The notes under the pieces are model-generated. The model did no database searches and had not been told where the DNA came from. It worked only from the letters and a program-made list of their open reading frames with translations. Positions 1 to 44,161 of a stretch of DNA of 45,178 nt are shown here, piece after piece. Each line of letters starts with the position of its first letter. Within the stretch, counting starts at the first letter, position 1. Source of the stretch: Williamsia faeni (lineage in GTDB: Bacteria > Actinomycetota > Actinomycetes > Mycobacteriales > Mycobacteriaceae); NCBI GenBank assembly GCA_003202005.1, contig QJJF01000020.1:1-45178 (forward strand), in the 5' to 3' direction. Position numbers and translations under genes: made by a program.

Positions 1-525
1 CTCGAACTGACACTGGACGGGTTTTGAACTGGTGGTTGTGGTTGTTTGCAGATCGTTGGCGCTATTGAGTACATTCGGATCATGTAGTGGGGGAGCACCT
101 TTCGTGTTTGGGGCGTTGGATAGTGTTGGGCGGTTTCGGTGCTACTGCGTACCCTCTGCGTACCGGGCTCCGAGTCTTCGGATGAACGAGGGCTCTCATG
201 AAAAGATACAGCTGTTGACCTTCGTCCCAGTGAGACCGGCGCCGGGGTCGTCCATGACGGTGTCGAGGCCGTCGTCCAATCGAGCGAGCTGTTGCGAGGT
301 TCTGGCCGAGGTCCTCGACCTTCCGTCGATCGGCGTGGACACCTCGTCTTCGACATCGGCGCGCACTCGCTTGCTGCGACGAAGGCCGTTGCCCAGCTCA
401 GCGCCCGCGTGGGCTGACCCGACCTGCCGCATCGCAGAAACCTGGACTGCGAGCTTGGACGACGCACATGGTTCCACCAGAACGCGCCGGGCTGCCTGCT
501 GCGCTAAATCCAATCAGCGCAGGAG
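1..525. repeat. Left terminal direct repeat of the island (attachment-site copy)
   Basis: This stretch matches 44133 to about 44575 at high identity, with base 1 aligning to base 44133. It begins inside a tRNA 3'-half sequence (minus strand) cut by the window edge, followed by sequence specific to the island end. The copy at the right lacks about 87 bp present here (around 252-338) and carries compensating 1-bp indels near 366-395. A minus-strand reading frame across the repeat (196-513) therefore stays open in both copies, but it has only a TTG start and I do not recognise the product. The copies most likely mark the distal ends of two related islands in tandem. Confidence 0.85.
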
Positions 526-707
526 ACCGCCGCCTCACCTGCAGATATTATTAGCATCATTGCCACAGAATGTGGGTGCGACCTGCGTGTCGGCTTGGTT
601 GCGGTTCGCCGGGCGTGTTTGGCCCGGTGGAGGAACGAGTACGGTCACGCCCAGACTGGCGGTGCTCCCACGCCGGGCGCCGGCCGAAGCTCGGACCCCC
701 AGCGGTC

Positions 708-1160
708 TCAGGTGATTGGCGAGAACGTTTTCATGTCGCGGACTTCTCGCAGTGGCGTTTCTCGGATGGTCACGGTGGAGTCGATATCGTCGATGGTCCT
801 GCATCCGGCAAGCGCCATGGTGCTGTAGAGCTCGACCCGGAGAATGTCGATGACGCTTTCAACTCCGGCCTCACCATAGGCGCCCAGCCCGAACATGTAC
901 GGCCGCCCGACGAGCACAGCCCTGGCTCCGAGCGAGAGTGCCTGGAACGCATCGTGCCGCGGCGGACGCCACCATCGAGGTAGACCTCTATGTGGCTGTC
1001 AGCGGCTTCGACGACCTCGGGAGTGTCGAGGCTCGAGCGCGCTCATCGACATTGCGGCCCCCGTGGTTGAAAACGACCACACCATCAATGCGAAGGCGTG
1101 CAATTGGCAAGTCTCCATCGAGGTGCCAGCGAGCGCTCCACGCGGAAACGGTTCGAGAGT
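708..1160 (-). pseudogene. FMN-dependent 2-hydroxyacid dehydrogenase remnant (lactate/mandelate dehydrogenase family)
   Basis: Three reading-frame pieces on the minus strand join into the C-terminal third of an FMN-dependent alpha-hydroxyacid dehydrogenase. The first has the family signature DGVVVFNHGGRNVD, near 1080. The second reads PEVVEAADSHIEVYLDGG, near 980-1030. The third starts at DAFQALSLGARAVLVGRPYM and runs to the stop at 708 through ALAGCRTIDDI. Two frameshifts separate them and the N-terminal two thirds are missing, so no active enzyme can be made. Family members oxidise lactate, glycolate or mandelate; which one this was cannot be read from the fragment. It lies just inside the island end, where debris is common. 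Confidence 0.8.
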
Positions 1161-1457
1161 ATCGCTCACTAACGGGACCGATTGTCTGGTGGTCGGTGAA
1201 CAACCCGTAACAGAGATGCCGGGGTCGAGCGCCTCACTCTGGGTGGGGCGGCGGTCTAAAAGACCTACGTTGCAGACGTAAGTCCGGGTGGTTGGGTTCG
1301 GACCACGCACTCGCTCACCCTAAGCTAAGCACCAACTGTCCACGTCATACGTAGTCCGCTCCAGCAAATCGACGCAACTCGCATCAGAGGTCACTGATTG
1401 GCCGACTGCGCCAGTCAATCCGCCCTTGAAGGCGCCCCGTGTCTTCGCAGCTGCCGG
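1161..1457. other. Intergenic, nothing recognised
   Basis: About 300 bases between the dehydrogenase remnant and the end of the cobalt transporter gene. I see no convincing frame, RNA or strong hairpin here. Confidence 0.5.
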
Positions 1458-2528
1458 TTACACCAGCGTGCTGTCGGAAGCGTCGGACCGGCGTGCGACC
1501 ACTAGGGCACTGCCCCAAATTACTACGAAGGTCCCCGCTATTGCGTAACCAAGGATCTCGAAGTTGTCCGACATCGCGCCAACAGGAGCGAGCCAGCCGA
1601 ATCCGCGCACCTGATAAAGCAGACCACAAATGTAGATGCCAGCGACAAAGAACCCGATGGCCACAGTGGCGCCGGTTGTCAAGGTATTGAAGCGGAGCCG
1701 ACGTACGGGACTGCCATTCGACCATGAATAGGCGCGGGTCATGACGAGTGAGTCCGCAGTATCGAACGTGCTCATCCCGGCGGCGAAAAGAATTGGCAGA
1801 CTGAGTATCGCCCCCCAGGACAAATGACCCGTCGTGGAGGCTGCGGCAGTTAGCGCCAGAAGTGACACCTCCGATGCTGTTTCCAAACCCAACCCCATCA
1901 ATAGTCCCACCGGATACATGTGCCACGAACTGCGAATGAGTCCCCGCAATCGCCCGCCGAGCATGCGCGCCATGAACCCACGATGGGACAGGTTGTGCTC
2001 GAGTTCGTCCGAAATATCATGGCCTGCACGTTGCTTCTTCGACAGCATCACAAGTTCCCGCAGCACGACGCTGTTCATAGTCGACACGAGCACGAGGAAA
2101 ATTACAGCTATGACCATCGCTATGTACCCGCCGACCTGCTGCACGCGCGTCAGATCCATCGCTTTCACGACCGCGCCACCTAGAGCGACAAGTAGTGCGA
2201 GAATCAGTACCACCGTCGAGTGACCCATCGCGAAAAAGAAACCCACCCCCACAGGGCGACGGCCACGGAGCAGCATAATCCTTGTAGTGTCGTCGATTGC
2301 GGCAATATGGTCAGCATCGAAGGCGTGCCGCATGCCGAGCATGTATGCCAGCAGACCGGAACCGGCGATACCGCCACCCGTGGCAGGACTACCCGAGAAG
2401 CCAAGGTAAAGAACGACTCCCAATATATGCAAAAACAATATTGAACCGAGAATTCCCGCAAGGCGGCGGTGTTCGGCCCTCGACCACGGGCCGACCAATG
2501 GCTTCGATGATTCCGCAATAATCGTCAC
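1458..2528 (-). CDS. nhlF: Cobalt transporter NhlF (NiCoT/HoxN family)
   Basis: Integral membrane permease of the nickel/cobalt transporter (NiCoT) family, last gene of the nitrile hydratase locus, expected to supply Co for the hydratase. The family signature HAFDADHIAAIDD (H-X4-DH) is present, followed by GFFFAMGHSTVV, LGLETASEV and LPILFAAGMSTFDTAD, with about eight hydrophobic segments. The frame is open further upstream to a TTG at 2648, but I place the start at the GTG at 2528. That gives about 356 residues, close to the known NhlF length, and an N-terminus with the usual WSRAEHRRL segment. A purine-rich GAGAGA lies about 10 bases upstream, so the start is uncertain; an ATG at 2576 is the alternative. 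Cobalt rather than nickel specificity is inferred from the cobalt-type hydratase next door. Confidence 0.9.
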   Translation of the reverse strand: MTIIAESSKPLVGPWSRAEHRRLAGILGSILFLHILGVVLYLGFSGSPATGGGIAGSGLLAYMLGMRHAFDADHIAAIDDTTRIMLLRGRRPVGVGFFFAMGHSTVVLILALLVALGGAVVKAMDLTRVQQVGGYIAMVIAVIFLVLVSTMNSVVLRELVMLSKKQRAGHDISDELEHNLSHRGFMARMLGGRLRGLIRSSWHMYPVGLLMGLGLETASEVSLLALTAAASTTGHLSWGAILSLPILFAAGMSTFDTADSLVMTRAYSWSNGSPVRRLRFNTLTTGATVAIGFFVAGIYICGLLYQVRGFGWLAPVGAMSDNFEILGYAIAGTFVVIWGSALVVARRSDASDSTLV

Positions 2529-2660
2529 GTCGTTGATCTCTCGTATCGAACTCGAGCGGCGCGCCGCCGCATCCATCAACTGGGTTGCGCACGTGCACCT
2601 TATTGGGGCGTGTTTGTGCTCCCCAGGCACGCGTGTGTGGGCCCGCAAGAGGCGGATCGA

Positions 2661-3074
2661 CTATCGAGATGCCGGTGAAATAGCCACGGGTTCGCGGTGA
2701 GCCTCGTGATGGTTGGCGTTGCGAGGCGTCGCAAGAACCTCCCTGGTACGTTCGTCCAAAACTATCGAATCCGATAAGGCGCCATTCGCCGAGAGTACGG
2801 TTTCCAGCGCATTGAGCCAGTGTTGGTAGTAGCTCCACCGCTCCGTGCGGTCACCGCGCTCCCATCGCCGAATCGATTCGGTCAATGACAATTGAAATTC
2901 GCTCCACTCATAGTGGCCTTCATGATAAGCGGCGACAGCCAGAGCGAATGCGCGCAACTCCCACGGCTCGTCGAATGCACGCGACGCCGCGTCACTATTG
3001 GGGAGGTCGCATACCAACTTCTCGATCCGGCGACGTGTGTCATCGAGCTCGATTGAGTCCGGCCGGACGGTCAT
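2661..3074 (-). CDS. nhlE: Nitrile hydratase accessory/activator protein (NhlE type)
   Basis: A 137-residue protein containing [27 protein letters not shown] in pieces ([29 protein letters not shown]) and [13 protein letters not shown]. These are hallmarks of the nitrile hydratase activator/beta-like family. In cobalt-type systems this subunit forms a complex with the alpha subunit and delivers the cobalt-loaded alpha chain by self-subunit swapping (established for NhlE). The frame is open upstream, but the ATG at 3074 is the right start: it overlaps the alpha-subunit stop as ATGA, the spacing expected for translational coupling. Gene order beta-alpha-activator-transporter supports the call. 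Confidence 0.92.
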
Positions 3075-3688
3075 TTTGCAGCCTCCATCACGGGCCCGAC
3101 GCCGATCATCGAATCCCGTGTAACGAGAGTTGCAAGGTCGTCTTCGCTCATGCCCTCGGTCCCGGTCGGACGTTGCGGCAGTACCCAATAACGTAATTCC
3201 GAGCTTGAATCCCAGATACGAATTTCGATAGTGTCCGCAATGGAATAGTTGAAATCTTCGGCCAGCACCTTTCGTGGCTCGCGCGTGATGCGCGCACGGT
3301 AAGCAGGCGCTTTGTACCAGTTGGGCGGCAGTCCGAGTACAGCCCACGGATAGCATGAACATAAGGTACAGACAATGGCGTTGTGCACATCGTCGGTATC
3401 CTCCACGACTACCATATGCTCACCCTGCAGGCCTCCGACTCCAAGTTCTGCGCAAGCCGCCGTTGCATCTGCCAGAAGCTTCACTTTGAATTCCGGGTCG
3501 GTCCAAGCCTTTGCGACGACTTTGGCACCCAGTTGCGGACCGACCTCGTTCTCGTAGGCATCCGCCATCCTATCTACGGCCTCCGTTGTCATGACACCTT
3601 TTTCGATCATCAGCGACTCGAGCGCCTTTACTCGGGCCGCAATTTCTTCATGACTGCGCAGCTTGGTGTCAGTTCTTTGTTCGTCCAT
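3071..3688 (-). CDS. nhlA: Nitrile hydratase alpha subunit, cobalt type
   Basis: Catalytic, metal-binding subunit of nitrile hydratase (nitrile + water to amide, cytoplasmic alpha/beta hetero-oligomer). The metal claw reads V-C107-T-L-C110-S-C112-Y. Threonine at the second position of CTLCSC is the cobalt-type signature; iron-type enzymes have serine. In active enzymes two of these cysteines are oxidised after translation. Length is 205 residues, typical for the family. The start at 3688 is preceded by AGGAG (reverse complement of ctcct) a few bases upstream; the longer open frame upstream is read-through of the beta gene region. It begins 2 bp beyond the beta-subunit stop and its stop overlaps nhlE by 4 bp, so the three are co-translated. 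Confidence 0.96.
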
Positions 3689-3689
3689 G

Positions 3690-4397
3690 TCAAACTCCTG
3701 CTGTGATGTTGTTGGCGGCGTGAGTAATGTACGGCTCCCAAACGTCGAAACACACTGACGAAGCAGGGTCGGCTGTTTTCTCGCCCCATAGCTCGGTAGC
3801 CGTGAACTTGACGGTGTACACGTGTTCCGGGCAGTCGCCCAGTCCGTTGCCAGAGGTGTCCGGGTAGACGTAAGCACCTGGTGCAGCGGTCACCACACCT
3901 GTTCTTCCCCTGATGTAACCCGCTCTGCGCGTGTGGCCGGTCGGACTGTCGGACGCCACCGTGACGCCGTCACCGACCTTGAAGGCTCGTACCTTTGAGG
4001 TGGAGCGGGCGGCAGAAAAGCCGCTCGTAATTGCACCGTTCACAAACTCAAGGATGTCGGGATCCGCACGTTTTGGGAGGGGCGCGTCCGGATTGGCAGT
4101 GTAAAATTGGATGCGCTCTTCTAATTCCGAGGCATCGAACAAATCGTGCTCCTGGCACATGTGCTCGAGCACATGGGTCCAGTGTTCGTAGTAGTTTGAC
4201 AATAGATACTCGGCTGGATCCATTTTCTCGATGCAATGGCGGAATTCGTCGATGTTGAACAGGCCTGCGCGGGCACCCTGGGCAAACATTGAAAATGCCG
4301 CCTTCTCCCATTCGGCACGAAATACCGGTTCGGATCCTTTGTCACTCTGTACTGGACCCATTCCGTCTGTCCCGGCCAAGTCAAAAACGCCGTTCAT
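3690..4397 (-). CDS. nhlB: Nitrile hydratase beta subunit
   Basis: A 235-residue partner of the alpha subunit. It opens with the classic beta-subunit start [16 protein letters not shown] and contains [13 protein letters not shown] and [15 protein letters not shown]. The C-terminal SH3-like barrel has [18 protein letters not shown] and [17 protein letters not shown]. Beta lies before alpha, the order found in cobalt-type rhodococcal loci; the iron-type order is alpha then beta. Its start overlaps the amidase stop by 4 bp (ATGA), so amidase and hydratase are coupled on one transcript. Confidence 0.96.
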
Positions 4398-5938
4398 GCC
4401 ATTTCTCCTACTGTCTGTGCAGGTTTGAAAGTGGGGAATCCGCCGCGGGCCTGCTCGTATGTGTTAGCGACACGCAGAACCGTGGAGTCGTCAAACCGTT
4501 TACCGATAATCATGAGTCCGGCGGGCCGGCCGTCAACAAGTTCCGTCGGGACCGAACACGCGGGGTGTCCGCTGACGTCGAAAGGTGCGCAATTGCCGAC
4601 CATGCCTAACGCGACATTCAGGAAGTCCGCCAGAGGAGCGCCTTCGGGAAGAAATTTGCGCGCCGTGTACGGCACAGTCGGCATCACCAGCACGTCGTAT
4701 TCCGCCAACGCCTGGTCGTAGGCTTTGCGCAGTTCGAGAGCTAGATTGCGTGCCATGGCGTAATACTTGCCGCCGCCGAGTTCGAAGGTGTACCGCCCCG
4801 ACAAGCCGACGAGCTTGACCGATTTGGACAGTTTCGCCCCGTGGGTGATGCGGTTGGCGGCGTAGTGGGCGATCAGTTCCGGGTCGTATTCCCCTTGCGA
4901 GTTCATGCCGTACCCGTTGCCATCCAGCATCTGGAAAGCGGCGCCCTCGGTTCCGATGACGTTCCACACCGCGAGGGCGTCTGAATGCCATGGAATCGAC
5001 ACGTTGTCCGCTGTCATGCCCTCCCCGCGCAGTACGTCGACCGCGGCCAAAACAGCTTCGTCGATTCCGGTTTCGGTATTGAGCGCGCCGAATCCTTCGC
5101 CGACGATGCCGATCTTGAGGCCGGCTGTCGATTCGTTCAGGTCACCCACATAATCAATGAAGGGTGTGGTGTCGGGCTGACGCGGGTCGAGTCCATCGAC
5201 CCCTGCGATGGCGGTGAGCATCGATGCTGCATCGTGCACGGTCCTGGTCATGGGACCCAGATGGTCAATGGTCTGTTCGATGGGAAAGGCGCCGGTGTAC
5301 GGGACCAGTCCGTATGTCGGCTTGTGACCAACACACCCACAGAACGAACTGGGAATGCGTACGGATCCACCCTGGTCACCTCCCACAGCAAGATCCACCG
5401 CACCGGAGGCCACCAGCGCTGCACTCCCGGAGGAAGAACCACCAGCATTTCGCGAGTGGTCCCATGGGTTGAGCACCCGCCTCGGTTGCGAGGTCATGCT
5501 GCTGCCAGAGAAACAGAGGTCCTCGCATACCGCTTTGCCCGTGATCGTCGCTCCCGCCGCAAGCAATCGGGTGACAACCGTCGCGTCGCGTCGTGGTATG
5601 TGGCCCTCCACGGTGCGCGAACCGTTCATCATGGGAACACCGGCGACCGAAATGTTGTCCTTGATCGCAACGGTTTTGCCGACTAGAGGTCCGTTCGCCG
5701 CACCTTCGATTTCGGTTGTGACGTACCACGCGCCTAAAGGGTTGTCGGACGGCTCCGACCAGGCCCGCCCGGGCGCGGTTGGCGCTGTCTCGTTGTACAG
5801 CTCCTCAACCCGTTCGGACGAGGCCAGCGTAGCGGTGACTGCCAGAACGTACTCGTCGATCTCGGCGGCCGACAGCCCGTAGTTGTAATGGGCGTCGAGG
5901 TCAGCCAGGCGGGTCGAGTCAGGGGAAGGTATGGACAT
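4394..5938 (-). CDS. amdA: Amidase of the amidase-signature family (nitrile-pathway amidase)
   Basis: Hydrolyses the amide made by nitrile hydratase to carboxylic acid and ammonia. The amidase-signature triad is visible: Lys93 in VAIKDN, the cis-Ser168 in the GGSSSGSA loop, and the nucleophile Ser192 in GGDQGGSVRIPS. Numbering is from the chosen start. Spacing matches the well-studied rhodococcal enantioselective amidases, and the length of 514 residues is normal for that subgroup. The ATG at 5938 has GAGGAG upstream; an in-frame GTG two codons earlier is less likely. A separate promoter (5969-5997) sits just upstream, so this gene heads the structural operon amdA-nhlB-nhlA-nhlE-nhlF, with overlaps or 1-bp gaps up to nhlE. 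Confidence 0.95.
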   Translation of the reverse strand: MSIPSPDSTRLADLDAHYNYGLSAAEIDEYVLAVTATLASSERVEELYNETAPTAPGRAWSEPSDNPLGAWYVTTEIEGAANGPLVGKTVAIKDNISVAGVPMMNGSRTVEGHIPRRDATVVTRLLAAGATITGKAVCEDLCFSGSSMTSQPRRVLNPWDHSRNAGGSSSGSAALVASGAVDLAVGGDQGGSVRIPSSFCGCVGHKPTYGLVPYTGAFPIEQTIDHLGPMTRTVHDAASMLTAIAGVDGLDPRQPDTTPFIDYVGDLNESTAGLKIGIVGEGFGALNTETGIDEAVLAAVDVLRGEGMTADNVSIPWHSDALAVWNVIGTEGAAFQMLDGNGYGMNSQGEYDPELIAHYAANRITHGAKLSKSVKLVGLSGRYTFELGGGKYYAMARNLALELRKAYDQALAEYDVLVMPTVPYTARKFLPEGAPLADFLNVALGMVGNCAPFDVSGHPACSVPTELVDGRPAGLMIIGKRFDDSTVLRVANTYEQARGGFPTFKPAQTVGEMA

Positions 5939-5968
5939 CAGCACTCCTCAGATACGGATCTGAAGAGA

Positions 5969-5997
5969 ACGCTAAGGAGATACCCGCGACATGTCAA
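5969..5997 (-). promoter_or_regulatory. Promoter of the amidase/nitrile hydratase operon
   Basis: On the minus strand, TTGACA (5997-5992) and TAGCGT (5974-5969) are separated by exactly 17 bases, a good match to a sigma-70/SigA-type promoter. It ends about 30 bp before the amidase start, with GAGGAG in the leader. A GTCAA/TTGAC inverted pair around the -35 box (about 5993-6016) is a candidate NhlC/NhlD-dependent control site; that last point is inference. Confidence 0.6.
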
Positions 5998-6023
5998 CGA
6001 TTCATGACGCATTGACTCAAAAT

Positions 6024-7475
6024 TTAACTCGTAACATCCAGTGGTAACAGTGCGTCGAAGGTTCCACCGTGGGCTTCGGCGAGGTACAGATGCCGGCCGA
6101 CGGACCCGTGGTCCGACAAAGCGACGCGACCTCGCGGTAGGTCATACGTACTCGACCGGATCTGCTCTGCAATGCGCTGTGGTTCACTGCCGCCCGCACT
6201 TCGGGCCGCCGAACCCCACACCGTCAGACCCTCAAAAACCGCCTCGGACAACGTTGACAAAGGTGGCGCCCACCGACCAAATACGTTCCGATAGCGTGCG
6301 ATCAGCCGGTCGTTGCCCACTGTCTGCAATCCCTGGTAGTAGGCGGATACGCCGTATATACCAACCGACGCTTCGGTCCCGATCCGAGCAAGTGTGGACT
6401 CGTCCATTGCGGGCCCAAGGCTCAGCGCACGGTTCCGTAGACCCATTGCGTAGCATCGACGTTCGAAGGCTGCCGCGTCTGCTCCGACGAACGTATTGAG
6501 CACTATGTCAGCCTTCGATGATTGGATCTTGTCGATAAGTTCGGAGAAATCCTCGGTGCCGAGGGATGCGTAGCTCTCGCCAACGATGCAGCCCCCAAGG
6601 TCGGGCAATAAGGAGTGGGCAACAGAGTTCACCCTTCGCGGCCAGCTGTAGCTGTTGCCGGCCAAAAACCATCGATTACCGTCAGCGAGCTTCATCAGGG
6701 GCCGGGCTGCGGCAAGGACTTGTTCCCTTGGCCGTTCGCCGAACTCGAGTCGCAGTGGATGTGCCGGCCCACCCTCGCTCATCTGCGGTTGCACAATCAA
6801 CGTCGGACTGGCCCACAGCGCCGTCGAGACTGCGTCGTAAGTCGCCGAGGTCGTCATGACGAAGATGGTTCGGCACCCGGCTCGAATCAATCGGTGTGCT
6901 TCGCGGACCCCGGTAGCAGGATCAGTCTCATCGTCTGCGACGAGAAGTTCGACCGGATAACCGTCGACTCCGCCGTCCGCGTTAATCTCTTCGACCGCCA
7001 GCGCTGCCAGGTTTTGACTCGCCGCAGCAAAGAGGCTTCCCGAGCCCGATTTGCTGGTGATCAGGCCAACCCTCGGCCCGCGCGCCTCGCTGCGCGGTAC
7101 GGGTAGTCCTTGCCGGCGCATCAACCACTCGATGCCCCCGGTATCCACTTCCGCATGTACACGCACCCGCGTACCTGCACTAACCGGAGCAAACCGAATT
7201 CGCACACGCCCTCGCCAGGGTTGATCGTGCGAGATGTCTATCGCCTCGGGCGGACGCACTCCACTCACACGCCCGAAGATGTCGACGGGGCCGGCACCTC
7301 CGAGCGGTATACGCATCGAAATAAATGCCCCGGCCGCCAGCCGATCGCACGAAGCACCAAAAAGCCAGCCAGCGTCGGAGTCGGCCCCGAACCGGGCGAA
7401 AACCTCCACCGGTGGTGCATCAATGAAGTCTTCGGCAGTTACCGCTACGGATCCACCCGACGCTAACCCCGCCAA
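6024..7475 (-). CDS. nhlC: NhlC-type regulator: SRPBCC-like domain fused to an AmiC-like ligand-binding domain
   Basis: A 483-residue protein. Residues about 135-480 have the type I periplasmic-binding fold of AmiC and branched-chain amino-acid binding proteins: GPRVGLITSKSGSGS, then AVEEINADGGVDGYPVELL, then TDPATGVREAHRLI. Here it should be a cytoplasmic sensor, since there is no signal peptide. In R. rhodochrous J1, NhlC resembles AmiC and is a positive regulator of amide-induced hydratase expression. Residues about 10-125 look like an SRPBCC/START-type fold (VTAEDFIDAPPVEVFARF at the start, then GRVRIRFAPVSAGTRVRV), a domain that binds hydrophobic ligands. The frame has no ATG or GTG near the start; the call uses a TTG behind GGAGGCAGGA, 7 bp after the nhlD stop. 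The start is uncertain but the domains are not. Confidence 0.85.
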   Translation of the reverse strand: MAGLASGGSVAVTAEDFIDAPPVEVFARFGADSDAGWLFGASCDRLAAGAFISMRIPLGGAGPVDIFGRVSGVRPPEAIDISHDQPWRGRVRIRFAPVSAGTRVRVHAEVDTGGIEWLMRRQGLPVPRSEARGPRVGLITSKSGSGSLFAAASQNLAALAVEEINADGGVDGYPVELLVADDETDPATGVREAHRLIRAGCRTIFVMTTSATYDAVSTALWASPTLIVQPQMSEGGPAHPLRLEFGERPREQVLAAARPLMKLADGNRWFLAGNSYSWPRRVNSVAHSLLPDLGGCIVGESYASLGTEDFSELIDKIQSSKADIVLNTFVGADAAAFERRCYAMGLRNRALSLGPAMDESTLARIGTEASVGIYGVSAYYQGLQTVGNDRLIARYRNVFGRWAPPLSTLSEAVFEGLTVWGSAARSAGGSEPQRIAEQIRSSTYDLPRGRVALSDHGSVGRHLYLAEAHGGTFDALLPLDVTS

Positions 7476-8793: not shown

Positions 8794-10203
8794 CTACAGC
8801 CGTAGATAGGGCTCATTGTTGTTCTGAACTGCGTTGATAGTGGTGTTGTTGGGCTCGAAATTGGTGTTTTCGTCGCCGGAGTGACCAGCCAAGGGGTCGG
8901 CGATGGCGTGCAGTGGTGTGAGTACGAGAATCGTAAGAGTTGGCGGAACTCGTTGACCGACAACCGGATCAGTCCAGGTTCTGGGTTTGGCCAGGCGTTC
9001 GGTGGCGGTGTGCATGGCCAGGACGGCGTGCGCGGCCATGACCAGGGTGATCCAGCGGTGCTAGGAAACCGGAGTCCGCACTTGATGCTGATCCAGACCG
9101 GTCAGGCCTTTGCTGGTCTGGAACGATTCCTCGACCGTCCACCACCGCCTGCGACCCGCACGTACAGGTGCGGCGGAACTGGCGTGGGGCTGTAGCAGCG
9201 GTGGAAGGCGAGCTCGTGAGTGTTGTCGGTGCGCCGCACCAGCACGTGGCAGCCGCCGATGTCGGGGCGTTCGGTGGTCGCGATCAGCGCAGAGAAAAAC
9301 CAGCGGTGTCCTTTGCTGCCCGGACTGGCAGACATTTTGTGCCAAGCTCGTGGGGGTAGAGCCGCAGTGAGCGCATCGACCCTCACTTTTCGTGCTTCTG
9401 TGGGGACTTGCCGGTTGCATCCGACGGCCAGTACGTAGCCGATCTGTCTGTCGTGCAATGCTTGTCGGAGGTTTGGGTCTGCGCCGTATACTCCATCGCC
9501 GGCAACCCCGGAGGCGGGTACATCGGCGTCGAGGGCCGCCTCGATCAGTGAGGTGGCCAGGGCTGGTCTGGTGGCCAACTCTACCGTGTCGGGCACCCCG
9601 GCCTTCGCTCGGCGGGCCGGGTCGGTGGCCCAGGTGTGCTGCGGTAGGTACAGGGCTCGGTCGATCAGGGTGTGCCCACCGGCGGCGGCGTAGGTCAGGT
9701 AGACCGCGACCTGGCAGTTCTCGGTACGTGCGGCGGATCCGGTGTACTGGCGTTGTACGCCAACGGTGTTGGTTCCTTTCTTCAGGTCGCCGGCCTCATC
9801 AACGACGAGCACCGCTTCGGGGTCGGCGAGGTGGTCGATGACATAGTTGTGAAGGTCATCGCGGACCAGGTCAGCGTCCCATCGGCGCGGGACAACAAGT
9901 GCTGCAAACGATCAGGCGTGCCATGACCCGATAGTTAGGCGATCGTCCAGCAGTTCTTGGAACCTATACCGGCCAGCAAACCGAGCACCAGAGCTCCTGC
10001 GTTTCGTCGTGCTTCGACCCGCGCCAACCGCGCCGCGAACGATTCCGACAGACCATCTAGGCCCGCATGCCACCGCTCATGGTCTACCCCTCAATGCTGC
10101 GGTTGCCGCAGCTGATTTGGATGTCTTCACAAACTCGAGATCATACCGCGGCAACCGCGCCTACCAGCACAAACACGCCGAAGCTACATAACTACGGCTG
10201 TAG
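8794..10203 (-). mobile_element. IS701-family-like insertion sequence with a dead transposase
   Basis: Terminal inverted repeats CTACAGCCGTAG at 8794-8805 and its complement at 10192-10203 bound 1410 bp. The transposase on the minus strand ends with its stop codon inside the left repeat. Pieces recognisable as an IS701-type DDE transposase include DHLADPEAVLVVDEAGDLKK, VGVQRQYTGSAARTENCQV, ASGVAGDGVYGADPNLR and VEESFQTSKGLTGLDQHQVR. They are split by frameshifts near 9840 and 9150 and by a TAG that replaces the tryptophan in VSWHRW near 9060. The upstream piece RLARVEARRNAG (about 10010) is the N-terminal part. It inserted directly against the right end of the MITE-like element. I see no clear target duplication. 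Confidence 0.8.
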
Positions 10204-10219: not shown

Positions 10220-10735
10220 TCAGTGATCTTGGCCGTGTGTCGCGCTTGCGGAGGTGCGCGCGCTGTTTCGCTGGGTTCCTGCGCGTCTTCGGCTCGTATC
10301 GACCACAACGACGTCGCCCTCGATCGTCACCGCATATCCCTCCATGACGTGCGGTCCCTGCTGCAGGCCACCGTCAACATCCGTGACATCCTCGGGGGAG
10401 CCCGGCACCACTTCGACAGCGTACTTGCGTACTTTGGCGTTTCGGGGGTCGTACCACGAGACGCCGGTCTGGATGTCGAATTCCCATTGATGCCAGGGGC
10501 ATCGGATTGATCGACCGCGCTCGTATTCGATAGCTTGGTCCGGTCCTGTGGCCGACGAGACCCCGAATATGGTGCCGTGTGAGCACAAAGCGGCGCCCGC
10601 GTGAGGGCATTGATCCAGCAGGGCGTAGTAGTTACCGTCGACGTTGAAGACCCCGATGGAGCGGCCCTCGAGCACGACGATTTTTCGTTGTCCGGGCTTG
10701 ATTTCGGTGGCGTCGGCCACGATAAATTTGCTCAT
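10220..10735 (-). CDS. Rieske [2Fe-2S] protein (ferredoxin-size)
   Basis: A 171-residue protein with a complete Rieske cluster site: C43-P-H45 in DQCPHAGAALC and C79-P-W-H82 in RCPWHQWEF. Beyond the cluster domain there is only a short charged tail, so it is not an oxygenase alpha subunit, which would need about 350-450 residues and a mononuclear iron site. It is more likely an electron-transfer ferredoxin. Its start overlaps the upstream amidohydrolase by 4 bp, so it is the last gene of a three-gene operon. The shared promoter box with the PDR-type reductase at 22112 suggests they exchange electrons. The terminal oxidase partner is not visible in this window. Confidence 0.85.
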   Translation of the reverse strand: MSKFIVADATEIKPGQRKIVVLEGRSIGVFNVDGNYYALLDQCPHAGAALCSHGTIFGVSSATGPDQAIEYERGRSIRCPWHQWEFDIQTGVSWYDPRNAKVRKYAVEVVPGSPEDVTDVDGGLQQGPHVMEGYAVTIEGDVVVVDTSRRRAGTQRNSARTSASATHGQDH

Positions 10736-13216: not shown

Positions 13217-13308
13217 CATTCGATGTTTTTCGACAAGGTGTGACCGCAACCCAGTTCGTCGGTTCGAGAAACAAGCCAGAAGTTATTACCTCTGAGGAGT
13301 TGACCAAC

Positions 13309-33875: not shown

Positions 33876-33912
33876 CTGTCCCAAATTGGCACACGCGGCC
33901 TGCGTGGGACAG
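33876..33912. promoter_or_regulatory. Inverted repeat in the monooxygenase promoter region
   Basis: CTGTCCCA (33876-33883) and TGGGACAG (33905-33912) form a perfect 8-bp inverted pair 21 bp apart. A smaller CACGC/GCGTG pair is nested inside (33892-33906). It lies 50-90 bp before the monooxygenase start, in the divergent region with the AcoR-like gene, and is the best candidate binding site for that activator. Confidence 0.6.
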
Positions 33913-33963
33913 CTCAAAGATAGTCCTACGAGTGATGCCAGTCACATCTCAGGAGGATTAATT

Positions 33964-35565
33964 ATGGCTGCTAATAAGTTGGATGCGCTGATCATCGGTG
34001 CCGGGGTCGCTGGGCTGTATCAGCTGCACATGCTGCGCGAACAAGGCCTTGCGGTGCGCGCCTACGACACCGCTTCCGACGTGGGGGGAACCTGGTACTG
34101 GAACAGGTACCCGGGCGCGCGCTTTGACTCCGAGGCGTACATCTACCAGTACTTGTTCGACGAGGACCTGTACCGCGGCTGGAGCTGGAGCGAACGGTTC
34201 CCAGCACAGCCCGAAATCGAGCGTTGGCTGCACTATGTCGCCGACACCCTCGACCTGCGACGCGACATCCAGTTCAACACGACCATCGTGAGCGCCCACT
34301 TCGATGAGAACACAGACCGCTGGACCGTCACTACCGGAGACGGTGAAGTTATCGACACCCAGTTCCTGATTACCTGCTGCGGCATGCTTTCTGCTCCGAT
34401 GGCAGATCTGTTTCCGGGGCAGAGTGAGTTCAGTGGAGAAATTTTCCATACAGCTCGGTGGCCCAAAGAGGGTGCGGAACTGGCGGGCAAACGCGTCGGG
34501 GTCATTGGCAACGGTGCCACCGGCATCCAGGTCATCCAAACCATCGCCGGCGAGGTGGGAGACCTGACGGTCTTCATTCGCACACCGCAGTACGCGATAC
34601 CTATGTCGAACCCGACCTACAGCGAGCAAGACGTCGAAGCGTACAAGGCGCGCTTCAGCGAGCTGCGGGACACACTTCCTCATACATTCACTGGTTTCGA
34701 ATATGACTTCGAAGAAGAGTGGAGCGCGTTGACCGCTGAGCAACGCACTGAACGCCTCGAACGGATTTACAACGAGGGGTCCTTGCGGTTGTGGCTCGCA
34801 TCGTTCGGAGAGCTCTTCTCCGATCAGCAGGTCAGCGACGAGGTATCTGAGTTCGTGCGAGAGAAAATGAGGGCACGCCTGGACGACCCCGAGCTGTTCG
34901 AACTGCTCGTACCGACCGACTACGGATTCGGAACGCACCGTGTTCCGTTGGAAACGAACTATCTCGAGGTTTACCACCGCGAGAATGTGCACGCCGTGTC
35001 GGTACGCAACAACCCCATCGCACGCATCGTCCCCGAAGGAATCCTCCTGGAGGACGGGACGCTGTACGAGCTTGACGTCATTGTCATGGCCACCGGATTC
35101 GACGCCGGCACAGGCGCTTTGACCCGGATCGACATCCGCGGCCGAGGTGGACGGTCGTTGACCGAGGATTGGAGCCGCGACATCCGGACCACCATGGGAC
35201 TCATGGTGGAGGGATACCCGAACATGCTCACCACGGCTGTCCCGTTGGCGCCGTCGGCAGCCCTGTGCAACATGACCACGTGCTTGCAGCAGCAGACCGA
35301 GTGGATCGCCGCTTGCATCCAGCATATGAACAGCAATGGCCTCGGTATCATCGAGCCAACGATCGCCGGCCAGGATGCCTGGGTCAACCATCACGATGAG
35401 ATCGCGAACGCCACCCTCGTATCCAAAACAAACTCGTGGTACATGGGATCAAACGTGCCCGGCAAGCCCCGACGCCTGTTGTCCTACATCGGGGGCGTGG
35501 GTGCCTACCGCGATGCAACGCTCAAAGCGGCCGCCAATGGCTACGAAGGATTCGTGCTGCGGTGA
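33964..35565 (+). CDS. Baeyer-Villiger monooxygenase (FAD, NADPH)
   Basis: A 533-residue flavoprotein that inserts oxygen next to a ketone to give an ester or lactone. The type I BVMO fingerprint F-x-G-x3-H-x3-W-P is exact: F156-S-G158-E-I-F-H162-T-A-R-W166-P167. Two Rossmann motifs flank it: GAGVAG at 12-17 for FAD and GNGATG at 182-187 for NADPH. The conserved [13 protein letters not shown] is near residue 380. The length fits the cyclohexanone/cyclopentanone monooxygenase class. The start has a strong AGGAGG. The esterase 40 bp downstream would hydrolyse the ester product. The natural ketone cannot be told from sequence. Confidence 0.94.
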
Positions 35566-35605
35566 ACGACTACAACCGCCGCACTCCCGGGAAAAGGTAA
35601 ATGAC

Positions 35606-36814
35606 ATGACACAGACACAAAGACCGCCGAAATTTGATTCGCGGGCATTCGGTGTGAACGCCGACAGAATCCTAGGTGCTGCCACCACGGATCCGGCTCC
35701 AGTGGCCGGAGTGGTCGCCATGGTCACCAACCGCGATGTCAACGTGTACGAGGGGTCCGCCGGCCGACGGCGCATCGACGGCGATGACGCGGTCGGCCTC
35801 GACGACGTCTTCGCGATCTTCTCGACGACCAAGGCCATCACCGCGACAGCTGCGCTGCAACTGGTCGAGGCCGGAGAACTCGACCTCGACGCTCCCGCAA
35901 AAGAGTATGTGCCGGACCTGAACGATGTTCAGGTCATCGAAGGTTTCGACAGCAACGGCGAACCACAGTTACGTGCCCCGAAGTCCCACCCAACGACACG
36001 CCAATTACTGACTCACACAGCGGGATTCGGCTACGATTTCTTCGACGAGCACTACAAGAGGCTCGCCGAAGACTTCGGGCAGCCCAGCGTCATCACCGCT
36101 ACGGCAGAGGCGCTGCGCACCCCGCTGCTCTTCGACCCGGGTAGCAAATGGCAGTACGGCACGAATATCGACTGGGCAGGGCAAGTAGTCGAGCACATCG
36201 AAGGCGCTCGCCTCGGGGACGTGTTCGAGACGAAAGTCTTTGCCCCACTCGGCATGCATAACACCAGTTTTGTTCTGCGAGACGATTTCCGTCCGCGCCT
36301 GGCGACCATGCATGCGCGCGAGGCCACGGGTGAGCTGACAGCGATGGAGTTCGAGCTGCCGTCACCGCCAGAGGTCGACTTCGGTGGGCACGGACTCTAC
36401 GGAACCGTCCGCGACTACATGAAGTTCATCCGCATGTGGCTCAACGATGGCCTGGGAGAACATGGGCAGGTGTTGCGTCCAGAGACGGTCGAGATGGCGG
36501 TGAAAAATCATCTCGGTGACCTACCGGTCACCATGCTTCCAGGTGTGATTCCGTCGCTGTCGAACGACGCCGAATTCTTTCCCGGACAATCGAAGTCGTG
36601 GTCGCTGCCCTTCATGATCAACAATGAGAAGGCGCCGACCGGCCGGCCGGCCGGAGGTCAGGGCTGGGCAGGGCTGGCCAATCTCTTCTACTGGATCGAC
36701 AGAGAAAACGGGTTTGGTGGGTTCTGGGCAACGCAGATCCTTCCCTTCGGCGATCCGACGTCGTTCACGAAATACATGGAGTTCGAAACAGCGTTCTACG
36801 ACGCGCTGGGCTGA
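35606..36814 (+). CDS. Serine hydrolase, class-C beta-lactamase-like esterase
   Basis: A 402-residue cytoplasmic hydrolase (no signal peptide) of the beta-lactamase/EstB family. The S-x-x-K nucleophile is S73-T-T-K76 in [13 protein letters not shown]. The Y-containing motif is [10 protein letters not shown], and a GGQGWAGL segment near residue 350 takes the place of the KTG box. It follows the BVMO by 40 bp with GAAAAGG as ribosome-binding site; an ATG at 35601 hits a stop after two codons and is ignored. Co-transcription implies it cleaves the ester or lactone made by the BVMO, as in known ketone pathways with paired monooxygenase and esterase. Confidence 0.9.
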
Positions 36815-39172: not shown

Positions 39173-40846
39173 CTTAGCCTCGATCCACCGATGAAATCCG
39201 CGGGTAGGCGTGTGTCGAAATGAAGAAAGTGCCCTCTGAGCTGGAAAGATTTGAGTTCTCACACAACAAATCGAACAGCCCGAACAAGGACACTTTCAGT
39301 GCGATCCTCCCACACGTTCCGCAGCGATTCCGCAGCGTTCGACGACGACACGCTCGTGTCCTGCGCCGGCTTGCTCCCGATCATGACTCTGGCCCGGCAG
39401 ACACAGCTGACCGATCTTCTCGCCGACAAGGTGTTGATCACGACGCCGAACGTCGCCTCCGGGGCGGCGAACCTCGCACCGAAACTGACCACTGTGATTG
39501 CAGCGATGTGCGCCGGAGCCGACTGTATTGACGACGTCGACCTGCTGCGATCAGGTGGTATGAGCCACCTCTTCGCATCGGTCTACGCGCCCTCGACCGT
39601 GGGAACATTGCTGCGCGAGTTCACCTTCGGACACAACCGCCAACTCGAATCGGTCCTGCGCGAGCACCTCGTCGCACTCGCCGACCGCACCGACATCCTT
39701 CCCGGAATTTCCGACCGCGCGTTCGTTGACATCGACTCACTGCTGCGCCCGGTGTACGGCCACGCCAAACAGGGCGCCTAATACGGCCACACGAAGATCG
39801 CGGGAAAGCAGATTCTCCGCAAGGGCCTGTCACCGCTTGCGACGATCATCAGCACCGCCGGTTCGGCTCCCGTGATCGCCGGAATGCGGCTGCGCGCAGG
39901 TAAAGCCGGATCTGGTAAAGGCGCACCACCCATGGTCGCCCAGGCGATCGTCACTGCCCGCATGGCCGGCGCCACCGGCACGATCATGGTCCGCGGCGAC
40001 TCCGCGTACGGCAACAGCGGTGTGGTCCGTGCCTGCACCAACGCCGGTGCAGAATTCTCGGTCGTCTTGATCAAGAACTCACTCGTGCACAAAGCGATCG
40101 ACTCCATCGCCGACTCGGCGTGGATACCGGTGAAATACCCCGGTGCGGTGCGTGACCCCGATACCGGAGCCTGGATCTCCGATGCCGAAGTCGCCGAAAC
40201 ATCCTTCACCGCTTTCTCTTCCACCAAATACCCGGTGACTGCGCGGTTGATCGTCAGGCGAGTCAAGGACGCAAAGTTCCCCGACGCACTCTTTCCCGTG
40301 TGGCGGTATCACCCGTTCTTCACCAACACGAACCTTCCGACCGCGACCGCCGATCTCACCCACCGCGGCCATGCCATCGTCGAGACGGTGTTCTCCGACC
40401 TGATCGACGGACCACTGGCACATTTGCCGTCCGGATCGTTCGGGGCGAACTCGGCGTGGGCGCTGTGCGCGGCGATCGCCCACAACCTCCTGCGCGCAAC
40501 CGCAGTCATCGCCGGCGGACCTCACACCAAAGCCCGCGGCGCGACCCTCCGACGCAAAATCGTCAACGTCCCCGCCCGCTTCGTCCGCCCACAGCGCACA
40601 CCAACACTGCGGCTCCCACACCACTGGCCGTGGGCAGATGCATGGCTTCGGCTGTGGAGCAACATCATCGGATTCAGCCCACCCAAGCTCCCCTGACACT
40701 GACCGCCCCGCCACCTCAGGCCCGTTGAACAGCAACCGTGAAAAAGCTGGGCACACCAGCGGCCCCCGCACGCCCTACGGCGACAGTCACCGCCTCCGGC
40801 CCAACACATCGGCGGCGGCCAAATCGGTCGGTGGATCGAGGCTTAG
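39173..40846 (+). mobile_element. IS1380-family insertion sequence
   Basis: A 1674-bp element. Left end CTTAGCCTCGATCCACCGA from 39173 and the complement of CTAAGCCTCGATCCACCGA ending at 40846 match at 18 of 19 bases. Between them lies one transposase gene of the IS1380 type, interrupted by a stop codon. I see no obvious 4-bp target duplication. The left leader, up to the transposase start, is conserved in the 177-bp derivative at 8615-8791. Confidence 0.88.
39299..40696 (+). pseudogene. IS1380-family transposase with one in-frame stop
   Basis: The reading frame runs from a GTG at 39299 (AAGGA upstream) to 40696, about 465 codons, and is broken only by a TAA at 39779-39781. The same frame continues directly on both sides: AFVDIDSLLRPVYGHAKQGA before it and YGHTKIAGKQILRKGLSPL after it. 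Serine (TCA) is the likely ancestral codon. DDE-type segments are visible: DIDSLL, IMVRGDSAYGN and GHAIVETVFSDL. Apart from the single nonsense mutation the gene looks intact, so the inactivation is recent. Read-through would restore a full transposase. Confidence 0.85.
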
Positions 40847-41140: not shown

Positions 41141-41177
41141 GATCAGAGGTTAGGGGTTCGAATCCCTTCGGGCGCAC
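41141..41177 (+). other. tRNA 3'-half remnant, tRNA-Arg-like (attachment-site scar)
   Basis: The T arm AGGGG-TTCGAAT-CCCTT is followed by a 3' acceptor strand CGGGCGC and A, and preceded by GATCAGAGGTT, as in actinobacterial tRNA-Arg(ACG). The 5' half and anticodon loop are absent. A tRNA cut at the anticodon stem is the usual att core left by a tyrosine integrase. Confidence 0.75.
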
Positions 41178-41606
41178 AATGTTACGGCCCGGACCCGCAC
41201 ATACGTGTGGTCCGGATCGTAACTATTCCGCTGAACGCAACTCGAACTCATCAATTTGTCGCCAAAGTGTTAAGTGGCTGTGGATCGTGGCGAACTTCAT
41301 TCCAACGGCGATGTGGTATTTCGGCGGCCCGATTGTGATCAAAAGTTCGCGACGGGCACGCGAATAGGACGGGCAGGTCGCGAATCGACCGATCTACGCC
41401 ATTGAAGCCGGTGGAGTAGATGCTGCTAAAACCAGTTAGCGCAGCTCGATTGTCTGAGCGGGTGGAGCCGATAATCGGTAACTACTGAGGTCGTAGTTCG
41501 CGCGGCACGCCGTCGGGCATCCGGGCGGTTGCAATGGCGCGGGTGTTCGGGACATGTGTCGGTGGTGGGGTTTACGGTTTGGCGTGTGATTGGTACGTGG
41601 TAGGCG
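41178..41606. other. Intergenic with second copy of a 17-bp repeat
   Basis: No gene recognised. GAGCCGATAATCGGTAA at 41465-41481 repeats 30352-30368 exactly. Confidence 0.5.
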
Positions 41607-41843
41607 ATGGGCAATGTGCTCGACGAGAAGCAAGGCGATCACGCTGTGACCTGCTGGGTCCGCTGCGCCCGTAGGAGGTGGGGTGTGGTCGGACCGATTT
41701 CGGCAGGGCAGTGCAGCGTGTATCGCGGTAACGGGGACTCATGCACACGGGTGGCTATCAAGGGTTGGGAAGGTTGCGGCAGGCACGGGGGTCGGGCTTC
41801 CCAGGTGAAGGCGAAGTGTTCGGCCACTTGGCTTTTGGCTTAG
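41607..41843 (+). CDS. Small Cys/His-rich protein, putative zinc finger
   Basis: A 78-residue protein with Q-C-SVYRGNGDS-C-TRVAIKGWEG-C-GR-H-GGRASQVKAK. Three cysteines and a histidine are spaced like the small phage/island zinc-finger motif that ends in C-x2-H-GG, often followed by QVKAK. That motif is frequent near integrases and terminases of actinobacterial phages and islands; the function is not established. It ends 11 bp before the next small gene and is in the same direction as the integrase, so the three look like one operon. The start is the ATG at 41607, with a weak ribosome-binding site. Confidence 0.6.
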   Translation: MGNVLDEKQGDHAVTCWVRCARRRWGVVGPISAGQCSVYRGNGDSCTRVAIKGWEGCGRHGGRASQVKAKCSATWLLA

Positions 41844-41854
41844 TGGACTGTCTG

Positions 41855-42139
41855 ATGACGACGAGGTTTGACCGGTTGGAGCGGCGGTTGTTCGCGGTTC
41901 GGACCGAGGTGGCGTTCGCCGCGACGAGGGCCGAGGCCGTGAGGTTCGGTGGGCCGTGCCGGGTCACTCGCGTGGTGGCACTGCGCATTGTGGGGATGCG
42001 GGTCCAGGGGGTGTGTTGCGGGGCCATCGCGCAGCTCATTTCGGCCGGCGACGTGAGCCCGGCTGGACGGACTGCCCGTCAACGGTCCACTGTGCGCCGT
42101 GACTGCGAGTCCATCGGGCTGGGGAAGGTGGTGACCTGA
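41855..42139 (+). CDS. Small basic protein coupled to the integrase, possible excisionase
   Basis: A 94-residue basic protein beginning MTTRFDRLERRLFAVRTEVAF. Its C-terminal half, LRIVGMRVQGVCCGAIAQLISAGDVSP then ARQRSTVRRDCESIG, could form a helix-turn-helix. I do not recognise the family. Its stop overlaps the integrase start by one base (TGATG), which implies co-translation. Position and size fit a recombination directionality factor, but that is inference from context. Confidence 0.5.
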   Translation: MTTRFDRLERRLFAVRTEVAFAATRAEAVRFGGPCRVTRVVALRIVGMRVQGVCCGAIAQLISAGDVSPAGRTARQRSTVRRDCESIGLGKVVT

Positions 42140-43527
42140 TGGCATGGGTGAAGGCGTATGAGACCAAGCAGCGCCGCGGCGGCAAGCCTGTGAAGACGTA
42201 CCGGGTGATCTGGAAGGAAGTGGAGCGCGACGGCGACGGGCTGCCGATCCCGGAAGACCCGGACAAGCCGCAGGGCCGTAAGAAGACCCGCAACCGGCAG
42301 GAGTCGTTCACCACCCGTGAGGCCGCGGAGTCTCGCCGCGACGAGTTGAACGTCGCTAAGCATGTCGGTGGTACCAGCGCTTTGGCGCAGCAGCGCAAGG
42401 CGGGTGATGTGCCGTTCGGTTTCTACGGTCGGGCGTGGCTGGACAGTAAACGCGTGAAGGTGGCACAGGGCCGATTGAAGCAACGCACCCTGGACGACTA
42501 TGAGAACGTCCTGCAGCGGTATTCGCTGGATCGGTTCGGCGGCACGGCAATTGCCGGCATCACGGCGCACGATTGCGACGAGTTCCTGGCGCAGTTGGTC
42601 GGTCGTGGCCTAGCGCCCAAGACGGTGACGCACGCCTGGCTCGCGTTGCGGTCGGTGTTCAAATATGCGGTGCGCCATGGAGCCCTCGCATCAAGCCCGA
42701 CCGATCAGGTGGACTTTGCGACCGGGCATTCGATGGGCGACCACGACAAGTTCGAGCACCACCCGCTGACCGCACAGCAAGTGGGTGAAGTCGCTGCGTT
42801 GGTGGGGGAGCGGTACCCGATCTATGAGGTGATGACGCTGTTCCTTGCCTATTCCGGTTTGCGCAAGGCTGAGTGTGCGGGCCTGGAGGTACGTGATCTG
42901 GAGTTCACCACCGCGCCCGGTCAAGACACCCGATGCGTGGTGGCGGTCCGCCGGACCAAAGACCGCACCGGTGGGCAGTGGATCACGAGCACGCCCAAGT
43001 CCCGGCGGTCGCGTCGGTCGGTGCCGTTGCCGCCGTGGTTGGCCGAGCGGCTACACCAGTACGTCGCGGCCGATCATCCCCGCGCTGATGAAGCGGATGC
43101 ACCGTTGTGGCCCAGTAGGAGCAACGGTGGGGGACACCGCGAAGCGGGGCGGCGGTATGCGGTGCCGTTGGATTGGTCGCAACCGCTCGAGCTCGGGACG
43201 TTCTTCGAGACGGTGCTTGCGCCGGCGCTGGTTGAGGTGGGTTTGCCGGTAAGTCGGCCGGCGACCGAGACGGAACCCGCGGTGCGGGGGGTGCGTCTGC
43301 ACGATTTCGGGCGGCATACGTTTGCGACGATGCAGCTGTCGGCGGGTGTGCACTTCATGCAGGTGTCGAAGTGGCTGGGGCATGGGTCGTACACCCTGAC
43401 TCTGGATACGTACGGTGAGTGGATCCCGGAGGAGGACGGCGGCGCGGGCAACACCCTTCCCGAGCCGACCTCGGTGCACGAACCAGCGCCGGGGCGATCG
43501 AATGTGATCGAGCTATTCGGCCGGTGA
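42139..43527 (+). CDS. int: Tyrosine recombinase/integrase
   Basis: A 462-residue phage-type integrase. It has an N-terminal arm-binding region (MAWVKAYETKQRRGGKPVKTY in pieces), a SAM-like core-binding domain at about 95-185, and a catalytic domain at about 205-430. Catalytic residues are visible: R242 in YSGLRKAE, a Lys/Arg-rich beta-hairpin at 286-293, H388 and R392 in LHDFGRHTFA, H415 in KWLGHGS and the nucleophile Y425 in TLDTYGEW. The box is H-D-F-G-R, one residue longer than the common H-x-x-R. It lies 590 bp from the tRNA attachment core at 44116, at the expected end of the island, and is the enzyme that would excise 1-44115. Confidence 0.92.
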   Translation: MAWVKAYETKQRRGGKPVKTYRVIWKEVERDGDGLPIPEDPDKPQGRKKTRNRQESFTTREAAESRRDELNVAKHVGGTSALAQQRKAGDVPFGFYGRAWLDSKRVKVAQGRLKQRTLDDYENVLQRYSLDRFGGTAIAGITAHDCDEFLAQLVGRGLAPKTVTHAWLALRSVFKYAVRHGALASSPTDQVDFATGHSMGDHDKFEHHPLTAQQVGEVAALVGERYPIYEVMTLFLAYSGLRKAECAGLEVRDLEFTTAPGQDTRCVVAVRRTKDRTGGQWITSTPKSRRSRRSVPLPPWLAERLHQYVAADHPRADEADAPLWPSRSNGGGHREAGRRYAVPLDWSQPLELGTFFETVLAPALVEVGLPVSRPATETEPAVRGVRLHDFGRHTFATMQLSAGVHFMQVSKWLGHGSYTLTLDTYGEWIPEEDGGAGNTLPEPTSVHEPAPGRSNVIELFGR

Positions 43528-44115
43528 AAAGTTAAGCGCCCCCTGAGGTTTCGTCGCGGCGTACCGCACCCGAGCCTTTTCGAGCTCGCTGCGAACGGCA
43601 TTGCACGGAGATTCACGATCAACGGGTGAGTGAACTGGGCGATGGTGTCGTCGTCGGCGGCGCACACGTTGGGTAGCACGGGGGTAGCACGGGGTGGCGC
43701 GGTTTTCCGAGCTTCGGTATCTGATCTAGCGACCCTGTGCCAGAGGCGGGGATTTGATGTCTCGCCCTCGAGATGATCTGCGGCACGTGCGAAGGTGCTG
43801 AGCGCCTTCGCGTGCGGGGTTTGCGCCGGCGGTGCGTGTCCGCGACGGATAGTACCTGTGGAGTGGGAGTTTGCGGCTGAGCACTGGCCGCGCCGACGGA
43901 GAGAATTCCGTTCACCCTGCCCCCGCAGCGCCGCCTCGGACCCTGGAACACCGTTCGGCGTGGGCTGTGAAAGCGAGTAGGGGATGCAATAGGGATCGTG
44001 TCACTGGGCTTGCAGAACGCTGCCGCGCGACGCGCGGTGGGTAGCATGGGGGTGGTATTTGGGCCGGTTCTGGTAGCATTGGAAGCAGGGTTACCACGTC
44101 TGACCAGCGCGAATG
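43528..44115. other. Attachment region with repeated GGTAGCA sites
   Basis: No convincing gene. GGTAGCA followed by C or T occurs at 43672, 43683, 44040 and 44072, on one strand, between the integrase gene and the att core. The first two are an exact 11-bp tandem (GGGTAGCACGG). These are candidates for integrase arm-type sites. Confidence 0.5.
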
Positions 44116-44161
44116 TGGTGCCCCCGGTCAGACTCGAACTGACACTGGACGGGTTTTGAAC
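44116..44161 (-). other. Attachment core: tRNA 3'-half (Leu CAA-like)
   Basis: Read on the minus strand: loop TTCAAAA (would give anticodon CAA), stem CCCGT, T arm GTCAG-TTCGAGT-CTGAC, acceptor strand CGGGGGC, then ACCA. The 5' half of a tRNA does not follow at higher coordinates, so this is not a gene but the 3' duplication left by site-specific integration. The same sequence, truncated, begins the window at base 1. Confidence 0.85.

Follow-up and report, generated by a model that had tools for sequence, protein, structure and literature searches.

The integrase-flanked unit of contig C20

The stretch of DNA analysed here (the window) is the whole of contig C20 (QJJF01000020.1; 45,178 bp) of Williamsia faeni, from an assembly of 44 contigs and 5.52 Mb in which contigs C29-C44 read N. 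It carries a genomic island lying between two copies of the 3' half of tRNA-Leu(CAA), referred to below as cores, one of which is faced by a tyrosine integrase gene. The features at the island boundaries are the following.

1..28, minus strand: left (tRNA-distal) core copy, tRNA-Leu(CAA) 3' half, 28/28 bases shared with that tRNA in other Williamsia
29..522: distal end of the window's island, matching 44161-44567 in two pieces and also C22:16225-16745
41741..42139, plus strand: remains of a serine resolvase (C-terminal part), matching the L213 resolvase at 44% over residues 94-215
42139..43527, plus strand: tyrosine integrase, 462 residues, box II HDFGRH (HxxxR), from Pfam and alignment
43671..43696, plus strand: direct repeat GGGTAGCAC with 11-bp spacing, candidate arm site (third copy at 44039-44053)
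44117-44160, minus strand: right (tRNA-proximal) core, tRNA-Leu(CAA) 3' half, 44 bp
44161..44567: distal end of the next island rightward, with its signature at 44278-44296
45084..45178: assembly overlap of 95 bp; the same bases open C28 and close C3

The right core is identical to bases 33-76 of the intact tRNA-Leu(CAA) in seven of eight other Williamsia genomes; in the eighth, the sole mismatch is the last base. The contig end cuts off part of the left core, leaving 28 of its 44 bases inside the window. The visible parts of the two cores carry no substitution, and the unit measures 44,132 bp from core to core. The same island end adjoins each core on its right: bases 1-254 and 44133-44386 are identical at 230 of 254 positions, and 340-522 matches 44385-44567 at 91% identity. 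Both ends contain a 19-bp arm-type signature, GGTAYGCAGAGGGTAYGCA (146-164 and 44278-44296), and a search for the candidate arm site GGGTAGCAC gave 3 matches where 0.23 would be expected. No tRNA was found in the window by ARAGORN, and neither core can be an intact tRNA, because the tRNA 5' half would have to lie on the right-hand side of the core, a position taken in both cases by an island end. Of the marks of a tRNA-bounded island, the direct repeat of the tRNA 3' end is present at both boundaries (28/44 bases being visible in the left copy), as is an integrase gene at the boundary. The G+C content, 61.1% against 62.8% in C14:40001-76455, is a weak sign.

These boundaries had largely been recognised in an initial annotation made from the letters alone, which described a minus-strand tRNA 3'-half core repeated at base 1, each copy with the same island end to its right and neither being an intact tRNA, and an integrase about 590 bp away. 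The measured distance is 589 bp, and the integrase is convergent on the core; the core itself spans 44117-44160 rather than 44116-44161.

Island ends at one tRNA gene

A single intact tRNA-Leu(CAA) was found in the genome, at C14:76456-76531. Synteny upstream of it is shared with all eight other Williamsia genomes (8/8) and stops at the tRNA 3' end, and an integrase frame ends 45 bp from the tRNA. In DNA searches of the whole genome, five contigs (C11, C14, C20, C22 and C26) had matches to the core or the end, and C7 had a single weak end. The signature GGTAYGCAGAGGGTAYGCA, allowing up to two mismatches, occurs 14 times in the 5.52 Mb (six on C11, two each on C14, C20 and C22, one each on C26 and C7), against 0 for a reversed control pattern, and an nhmmer profile run over a set of the contigs added truncated copies. 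The five contigs sum to ~298 kb, with C14 counted only after the tRNA and C11, part of which may be backbone, counted whole. The genome has many stacked or scattered relics of islands inserting at tRNA-Leu(CAA).

The closest relatives of the window are C22 and C26, and the three share a 3-kb integration module at 88-89%. On C11 only fragments of a C14-type integrase were found, and among the matches listed for C11:160001-180000 against other Williamsia none exceeds ~1 kb. We read the C11 units as older islands because only these fragments were found there, and not as dispersed repeats because cores and ends have no matches outside the five contigs apart from the weak C7 end. The 3' half of the C14 tRNA has AT at two neighbouring bases where other Williamsia have CC; the CC form is found in the cores of the window, C22 and C26, and AT in one C11 core (34310). 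On the simplest reading of this distribution, the newest island would have regenerated tRNA-Leu(CAA) with its own 3' half.

We conclude that the window is very probably one whole unit of a multi-island stack, arising from repeated site-specific integration at tRNA-Leu(CAA) of a Williamsia strain. In such a process, a tyrosine integrase would insert an island so that the tRNA gains an island-derived 3' half, and each insertion would push the older tRNA 3' half outward as a core. The unit is predicted to excise by recombination between its two cores, and should be able to do so because an intact integrase frame is directed toward the proximal core, the unit has candidate arm sites at either side, and its cargo is of catabolic type. 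The layout suggests that the unit would excise today, that C11, C20, C22 and C26 would join C14 in a single run, and in which order the islands may have been inserted.

A precise empty site is seen in a comparison of two sister species. In Williamsia genome G006 a second core lies 5.6 kb after the tRNA start, and G008 has the same arrangement without the 5.6-kb unit: G006:15689-29085 and G008:10105-23495 agree at 95.7% over 13.4 kb, starting at base 33 of the G008 tRNA. Similarly, a core on contig C87 of G002 matches the tRNA 3' half of G001 together with the sequence that follows it, the tRNA of G002 itself being on another contig. Judged from these alignments, insertion exactly at the tRNA 3' half occurs in the genus, for islands other than the window's unit. 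Several integrase relatives outside Williamsia also sit between a tRNA-Leu and a second core. As a side observation, the G006 unit contains a frame of 1322 residues (L073:11568-15533) with a phosphorylase domain and a below-cut-off match to a STAND NTPase, the product of which is possibly anti-phage.

Several points weigh against the stack as proposed. No integrase was detected in the 5.6-kb unit of G006, so its empty site provides no evidence for a role of the window's integrase family. Joining contigs via their 95-base ends gives no unique path: the last 95 bases at the left end of C20 are shared with the right end of C22, while the right end leads into the 3.6-kb C28, which likewise follows C3. 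The end overlaps between C14, C24 and C26 also fit an inverted C26, in which case the units would not share one orientation, and the insertion in box II of the integrase (see below) could have lowered its activity.

The repeats might also have arisen by duplication of DNA blocks, homologous or driven by insertion sequences, instead of repeated site-specific integration. The 3-kb module shared by three units would fit such a process, as would the longer repeats common to contig ends and a 3.3-kb cargo segment (24608-27897) with a 75% relative on C11, the gene concerned being common in Williamsia. However, the remaining cargo differs between the units, the matches end near the tRNA 3'-half boundary, and the comparison of G006 with G008 reveals a clean insertion at this boundary. 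We consider duplication very unlikely.

With regard to the wider predictions of the initial annotation, its model of two islands proved too small, given 14 end signatures and cores or ends on five contigs. The intact tRNA with an integrase beside it, placed beyond the right edge, is present in the same genome on C14, but that integrase has 28-29% identity to the one in the window and belongs to another family; extension of the right edge did not lead uniquely to this tRNA. Copies elsewhere without integrases, named there as counter-evidence, are seen in part, as C11 yielded integrase fragments only; matches are otherwise restricted as described above. The empty site anticipated from strain alignments was seen for the G006/G008 and G002/G001 islands, not for the window's unit.

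Two other contigs may be mentioned here. Both ends of C15 (87 kb) have their last 95 bases in common with two other contigs each, which would fit a stretch present twice. For C17, a position as chromosomal flank on the far side of the stack had been considered; C17:1-36277 has the look of ordinary chromosome, and the idea was dropped as the C17 operon lies beside the tRNA only in G004 and G005 among the relatives' stretches compared.

Cargo and related elements

The cargo was assigned by Pfam on 33 window proteins, namely 32 of the 38 predicted plus one added open reading frame (ORF), with six small predicted ORFs left out. It comprises the following features, together with a tRNA fragment.

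1458..7475, minus strand: nitrile-use cluster (Pfam/NCBIfam), comprising a NicO nickel/cobalt transporter, a small ORF resembling the N-terminal part of nitrile hydratase (NHase) beta (NHase-beta-N-like), NHase alpha, NHase beta, an amidase and a periplasmic-binding-type protein
9102..9812, minus strand: DDE_5 transposase fragment
10220..36814: further catabolic-type cargo (Pfam), with a Rieske protein, two amidohydrolases, a flavin adenine dinucleotide (FAD) oxidase, an acyl-CoA synthetase, a thiolase, dehydrogenases, a ferredoxin-type reductase, a pyruvate-carboxylase-like biotin enzyme, a flavin monooxygenase, a beta-lactamase-fold protein, major facilitator superfamily (MFS) transporters, and GntR, PucR-type and Fis-type regulators
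39299..40696, plus strand: transposase pieces (DDE_Tnp_1_4) in two ORFs
41141..41258, plus strand: tRNA-Arg(ACG) 3'-end fragment with its downstream sequence, 80% to C7:160308-160426

When the 33 proteins were examined for an integrative and conjugative element (ICE) or its actinomycete form (AICE), no conjugation/translocation or replication family (tra, rep) was found among them. The corresponding test for a prophage likewise found no phage structural or packaging family. The latter result argues against the elements being prophages or phage satellites that carry catabolic cargo, as do the 50,697 phage records, in which 35 integrase matches were obtained, all below 60% identity and none covering 80%. 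Pointing the other way, an IMG/VR scan gave 26 integrase loci, two of them close (L230, 58% over 1-459, and L231, 64% over 211-462); the contigs of these two, 55 and 57 kb long, are called viral in that database. In addition, genes of replication type are present in compact relatives at tRNA-Leu(TAA), namely AAA_25 in L037 and D5_N in L038. L037 and L038 may be phage satellites or integrated plasmids. We see hardly any likelihood of a phage nature for the elements as a whole. Plasmid records yielded 2 integrase matches, the better one being 68% over 23% of the integrase, in Rhodococcus koreensis.

The tRNA-Arg(ACG) fragment has counterparts at C14:91856-91970, C22:19560-19660, C26:6981-7094 and C11:51007-51057, beside integration modules; in C20, C22 and C26, it and the tRNA-Leu core are ~3 kb apart. 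The tRNA-Arg gene proper occupies C7:160271-160347, and 3.3 kb beyond it the tRNA-Leu island end recurs in diverged form. An integrase cassette was suspected at this C7 tRNA-Arg and none was seen; the stretch includes what we take, from reading the letters, to be an Hsp20-like frame. Next to the tRNA-Arg fragment of C14, three adjacent minus-strand ORFs (C14:89063-91603, equal to L030:9063-11603) have a tyrosine recombinase in the middle, an arrangement that we take to be reminiscent of recombinase-trio elements.

The integrase, its box II and the upstream resolvase

Against Pfam, the window integrase scores over the cut-off for PF02899, the SAM-like integrase domain (25.1 bits, cut-off 22.3), and under that for PF00589 (23.9 bits, cut-off 27.1). 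A genome-wide search with PF00589 missed it, and the protein itself was used as query instead. A profile of its family matches five distinct sequences of solved structure that bear the names Int, integrase or XerA. Residues R242, K274, H388, R392, H415 and Y425 are invariant in an alignment of 14 rows; their catalytic roles we take from established knowledge. Box II reads HDFGRH in C20, C22 and C26, compared with HDLRH in relatives, and so departs from the canonical HxxR spacing. A predicted structure is weak (mean predicted local distance difference test, pLDDT, 72; predicted template modelling score, pTM, 0.49; residues 402-437 below 50) and cannot judge box II.

When 401 genomes of the family were searched with this integrase, 19 matched at 1e-60, the window's genome included, and the search provided five further integrases with the box II insertion. 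For the tree, complete or long copies were taken and truncated or split ones left out, giving 25 rows (24 different), of which eight carry the insertion and 17 read HDLRH. All 10 tRNA-Leu(CAA) rows fall into a single group (support 100/99), within which the eight insertion rows again group together (98/95). This HxxxR subclade at tRNA-Leu(CAA) comprises Williamsia and, probably, Gordonia and Tsukamurella, and an intact tRNA-Leu(CAA) lies within the fetched stretch at all five insertion loci outside the window's genome. A broken integrase copy of Williamsia limnetica (G007, one of the other Williamsia genomes compared), beside tRNA-Leu(CAA), also has the extra residue. Other tree rows are not all at tRNA-Leu(TAA): L043 and L225 are near tRNA-Met, and L044 has no tRNA. 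We rejected the idea that the HxxxR insertion represents the switch to tRNA-Leu(CAA), as G354 and G108 are at CAA with an ordinary HxxR; because these two keep HxxR, the insertion marks only a subset of the CAA group.

The ratio of non-synonymous to synonymous substitution rates (dN/dS) is 0.09-0.23 in the insertion-bearing pairs computed and 0.07 in the single canonical pair. The insertion-bearing integrases are under purifying selection, with the caveat that gene conversion among Williamsia copies could spread the box II insertion. The window integrase is probably the enzyme that moves the window's island.

The window integrase is a member of a Mycobacteriales family paired with an upstream serine resolvase gene. 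Among distinct loci with an integrase match starting at residue 1, 21 of 22 have a serine resolvase upstream on the same strand within ~0.8 kb, and the single locus without one, L228, is near a contig end. For this count seven duplicate records were dropped and a stray archaeal hit (L060) left out; L034 and L217, both counted, are identical proteins from two genomes. No resolvase was found upstream of a truncated integrase at any of 15 such loci (15/15). All five resolvase frames submitted to Pfam match PF00239. In G108 (L226:1481-3952), resolvase and tyrosine integrase are joined in one uninterrupted open frame of 824 residues. The resolvase remnant in the window has no Pfam match of its own, and its stop overlaps the integrase start.

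These features raise the question whether the unit, once integrated, is now an immobile fossil. The resolvase is worn to a C-terminal remnant in C20, C22 and C26, box II is altered by an insertion, transposase pieces lie in the cargo, and the integrase of C26 is frameshifted. On the other hand, the integrase frames of C20 and C22 are intact, with a dN/dS of 0.17, the six catalytic residues are invariant, and the visible core parts are free of substitutions. We regard a fossil as a real possibility, though not a probable one. A further proposal we make tentatively and would place only slightly short of probable: a working tRNA-Leu(CAA) integrase lineage may have shifted its box II from HxxR to HxxxR, within a wider family that may be paired functionally with the adjacent serine resolvase.

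HxxR is a motif of tyrosine recombinases, of which PMC8371274 gives KxxR and YxxR variants, and shifted or substituted catalytic residues are described for other subgroups in PMC8138268. A literature search found no paper on an "HxxxR" recombinase and none combining tRNA-Leu, genomic island, Gordonia and integrase, which does not prove novelty.

The window holds a real, well-bounded island in a known kind of structure, the tRNA island stack, of unusual extent. The nearest known stack is that of the ssrA islands of Dehalococcoides (PMC3146451). There too, many tandem islands follow one RNA gene and are ended by a 3'-end repeat, many have an integration module beside one boundary, bases next to the repeat are conserved, the catabolic cargo is niche-specific, and some units are without integration genes. 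In contrast to the tyrosine integrases, 44-bp tRNA-Leu(CAA) core and 44-kb unit of Williamsia, the integrase there is a serine (Ccr-like) enzyme, the target is tmRNA, and the repeats are of 20 bp and lie within 100 kb. Among actinobacteria, PMC3218068 describes ICEs with tyrosine integrases in tandem in one tRNA, Fean5518/Fean5534 at tRNA-Lys and Sav3708/Sav3728 at tRNA-Arg, the Frankia pair (Fean5518/Fean5534) excising singly and together. According to this text those elements are conjugative, with rep and tra functions, and consist of two units, whereas here no such functions were found among the 33 proteins and there are many cores. An excised element of Rhodococcus jostii RHA1 was considered and set aside as unrelated, its authors reporting no integrase (PMC12169178).

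PMC3218068 also credits eight mycobacterial serine recombinases with integration into tRNA-Leu. These Mycobacterium AICEs resemble the present family in their related hosts and tRNA-Leu target, and complete members of the window family also carry a serine recombinase gene. In the source the serine enzyme is credited, whereas the loci described here have a tyrosine integrase immediately downstream of the serine gene.

Tandem tRNA islands are already known, and the new part may be the integrase module. The stack shows an actinobacterium gathering catabolic-type islands, for nitrile use, oxidation and acyl-CoA metabolism, at a single tRNA gene. In the integrase family, the tolerance of the strictly spaced HxxR motif to change can be tested on natural variants. 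The paired serine and tyrosine recombinase genes also offer an alternative reading of a reported oddity, the serine recombinases credited with mycobacterial tRNA-Leu integration: if our tentative proposal is true, that integration may be the work of a neighbouring tyrosine integrase.

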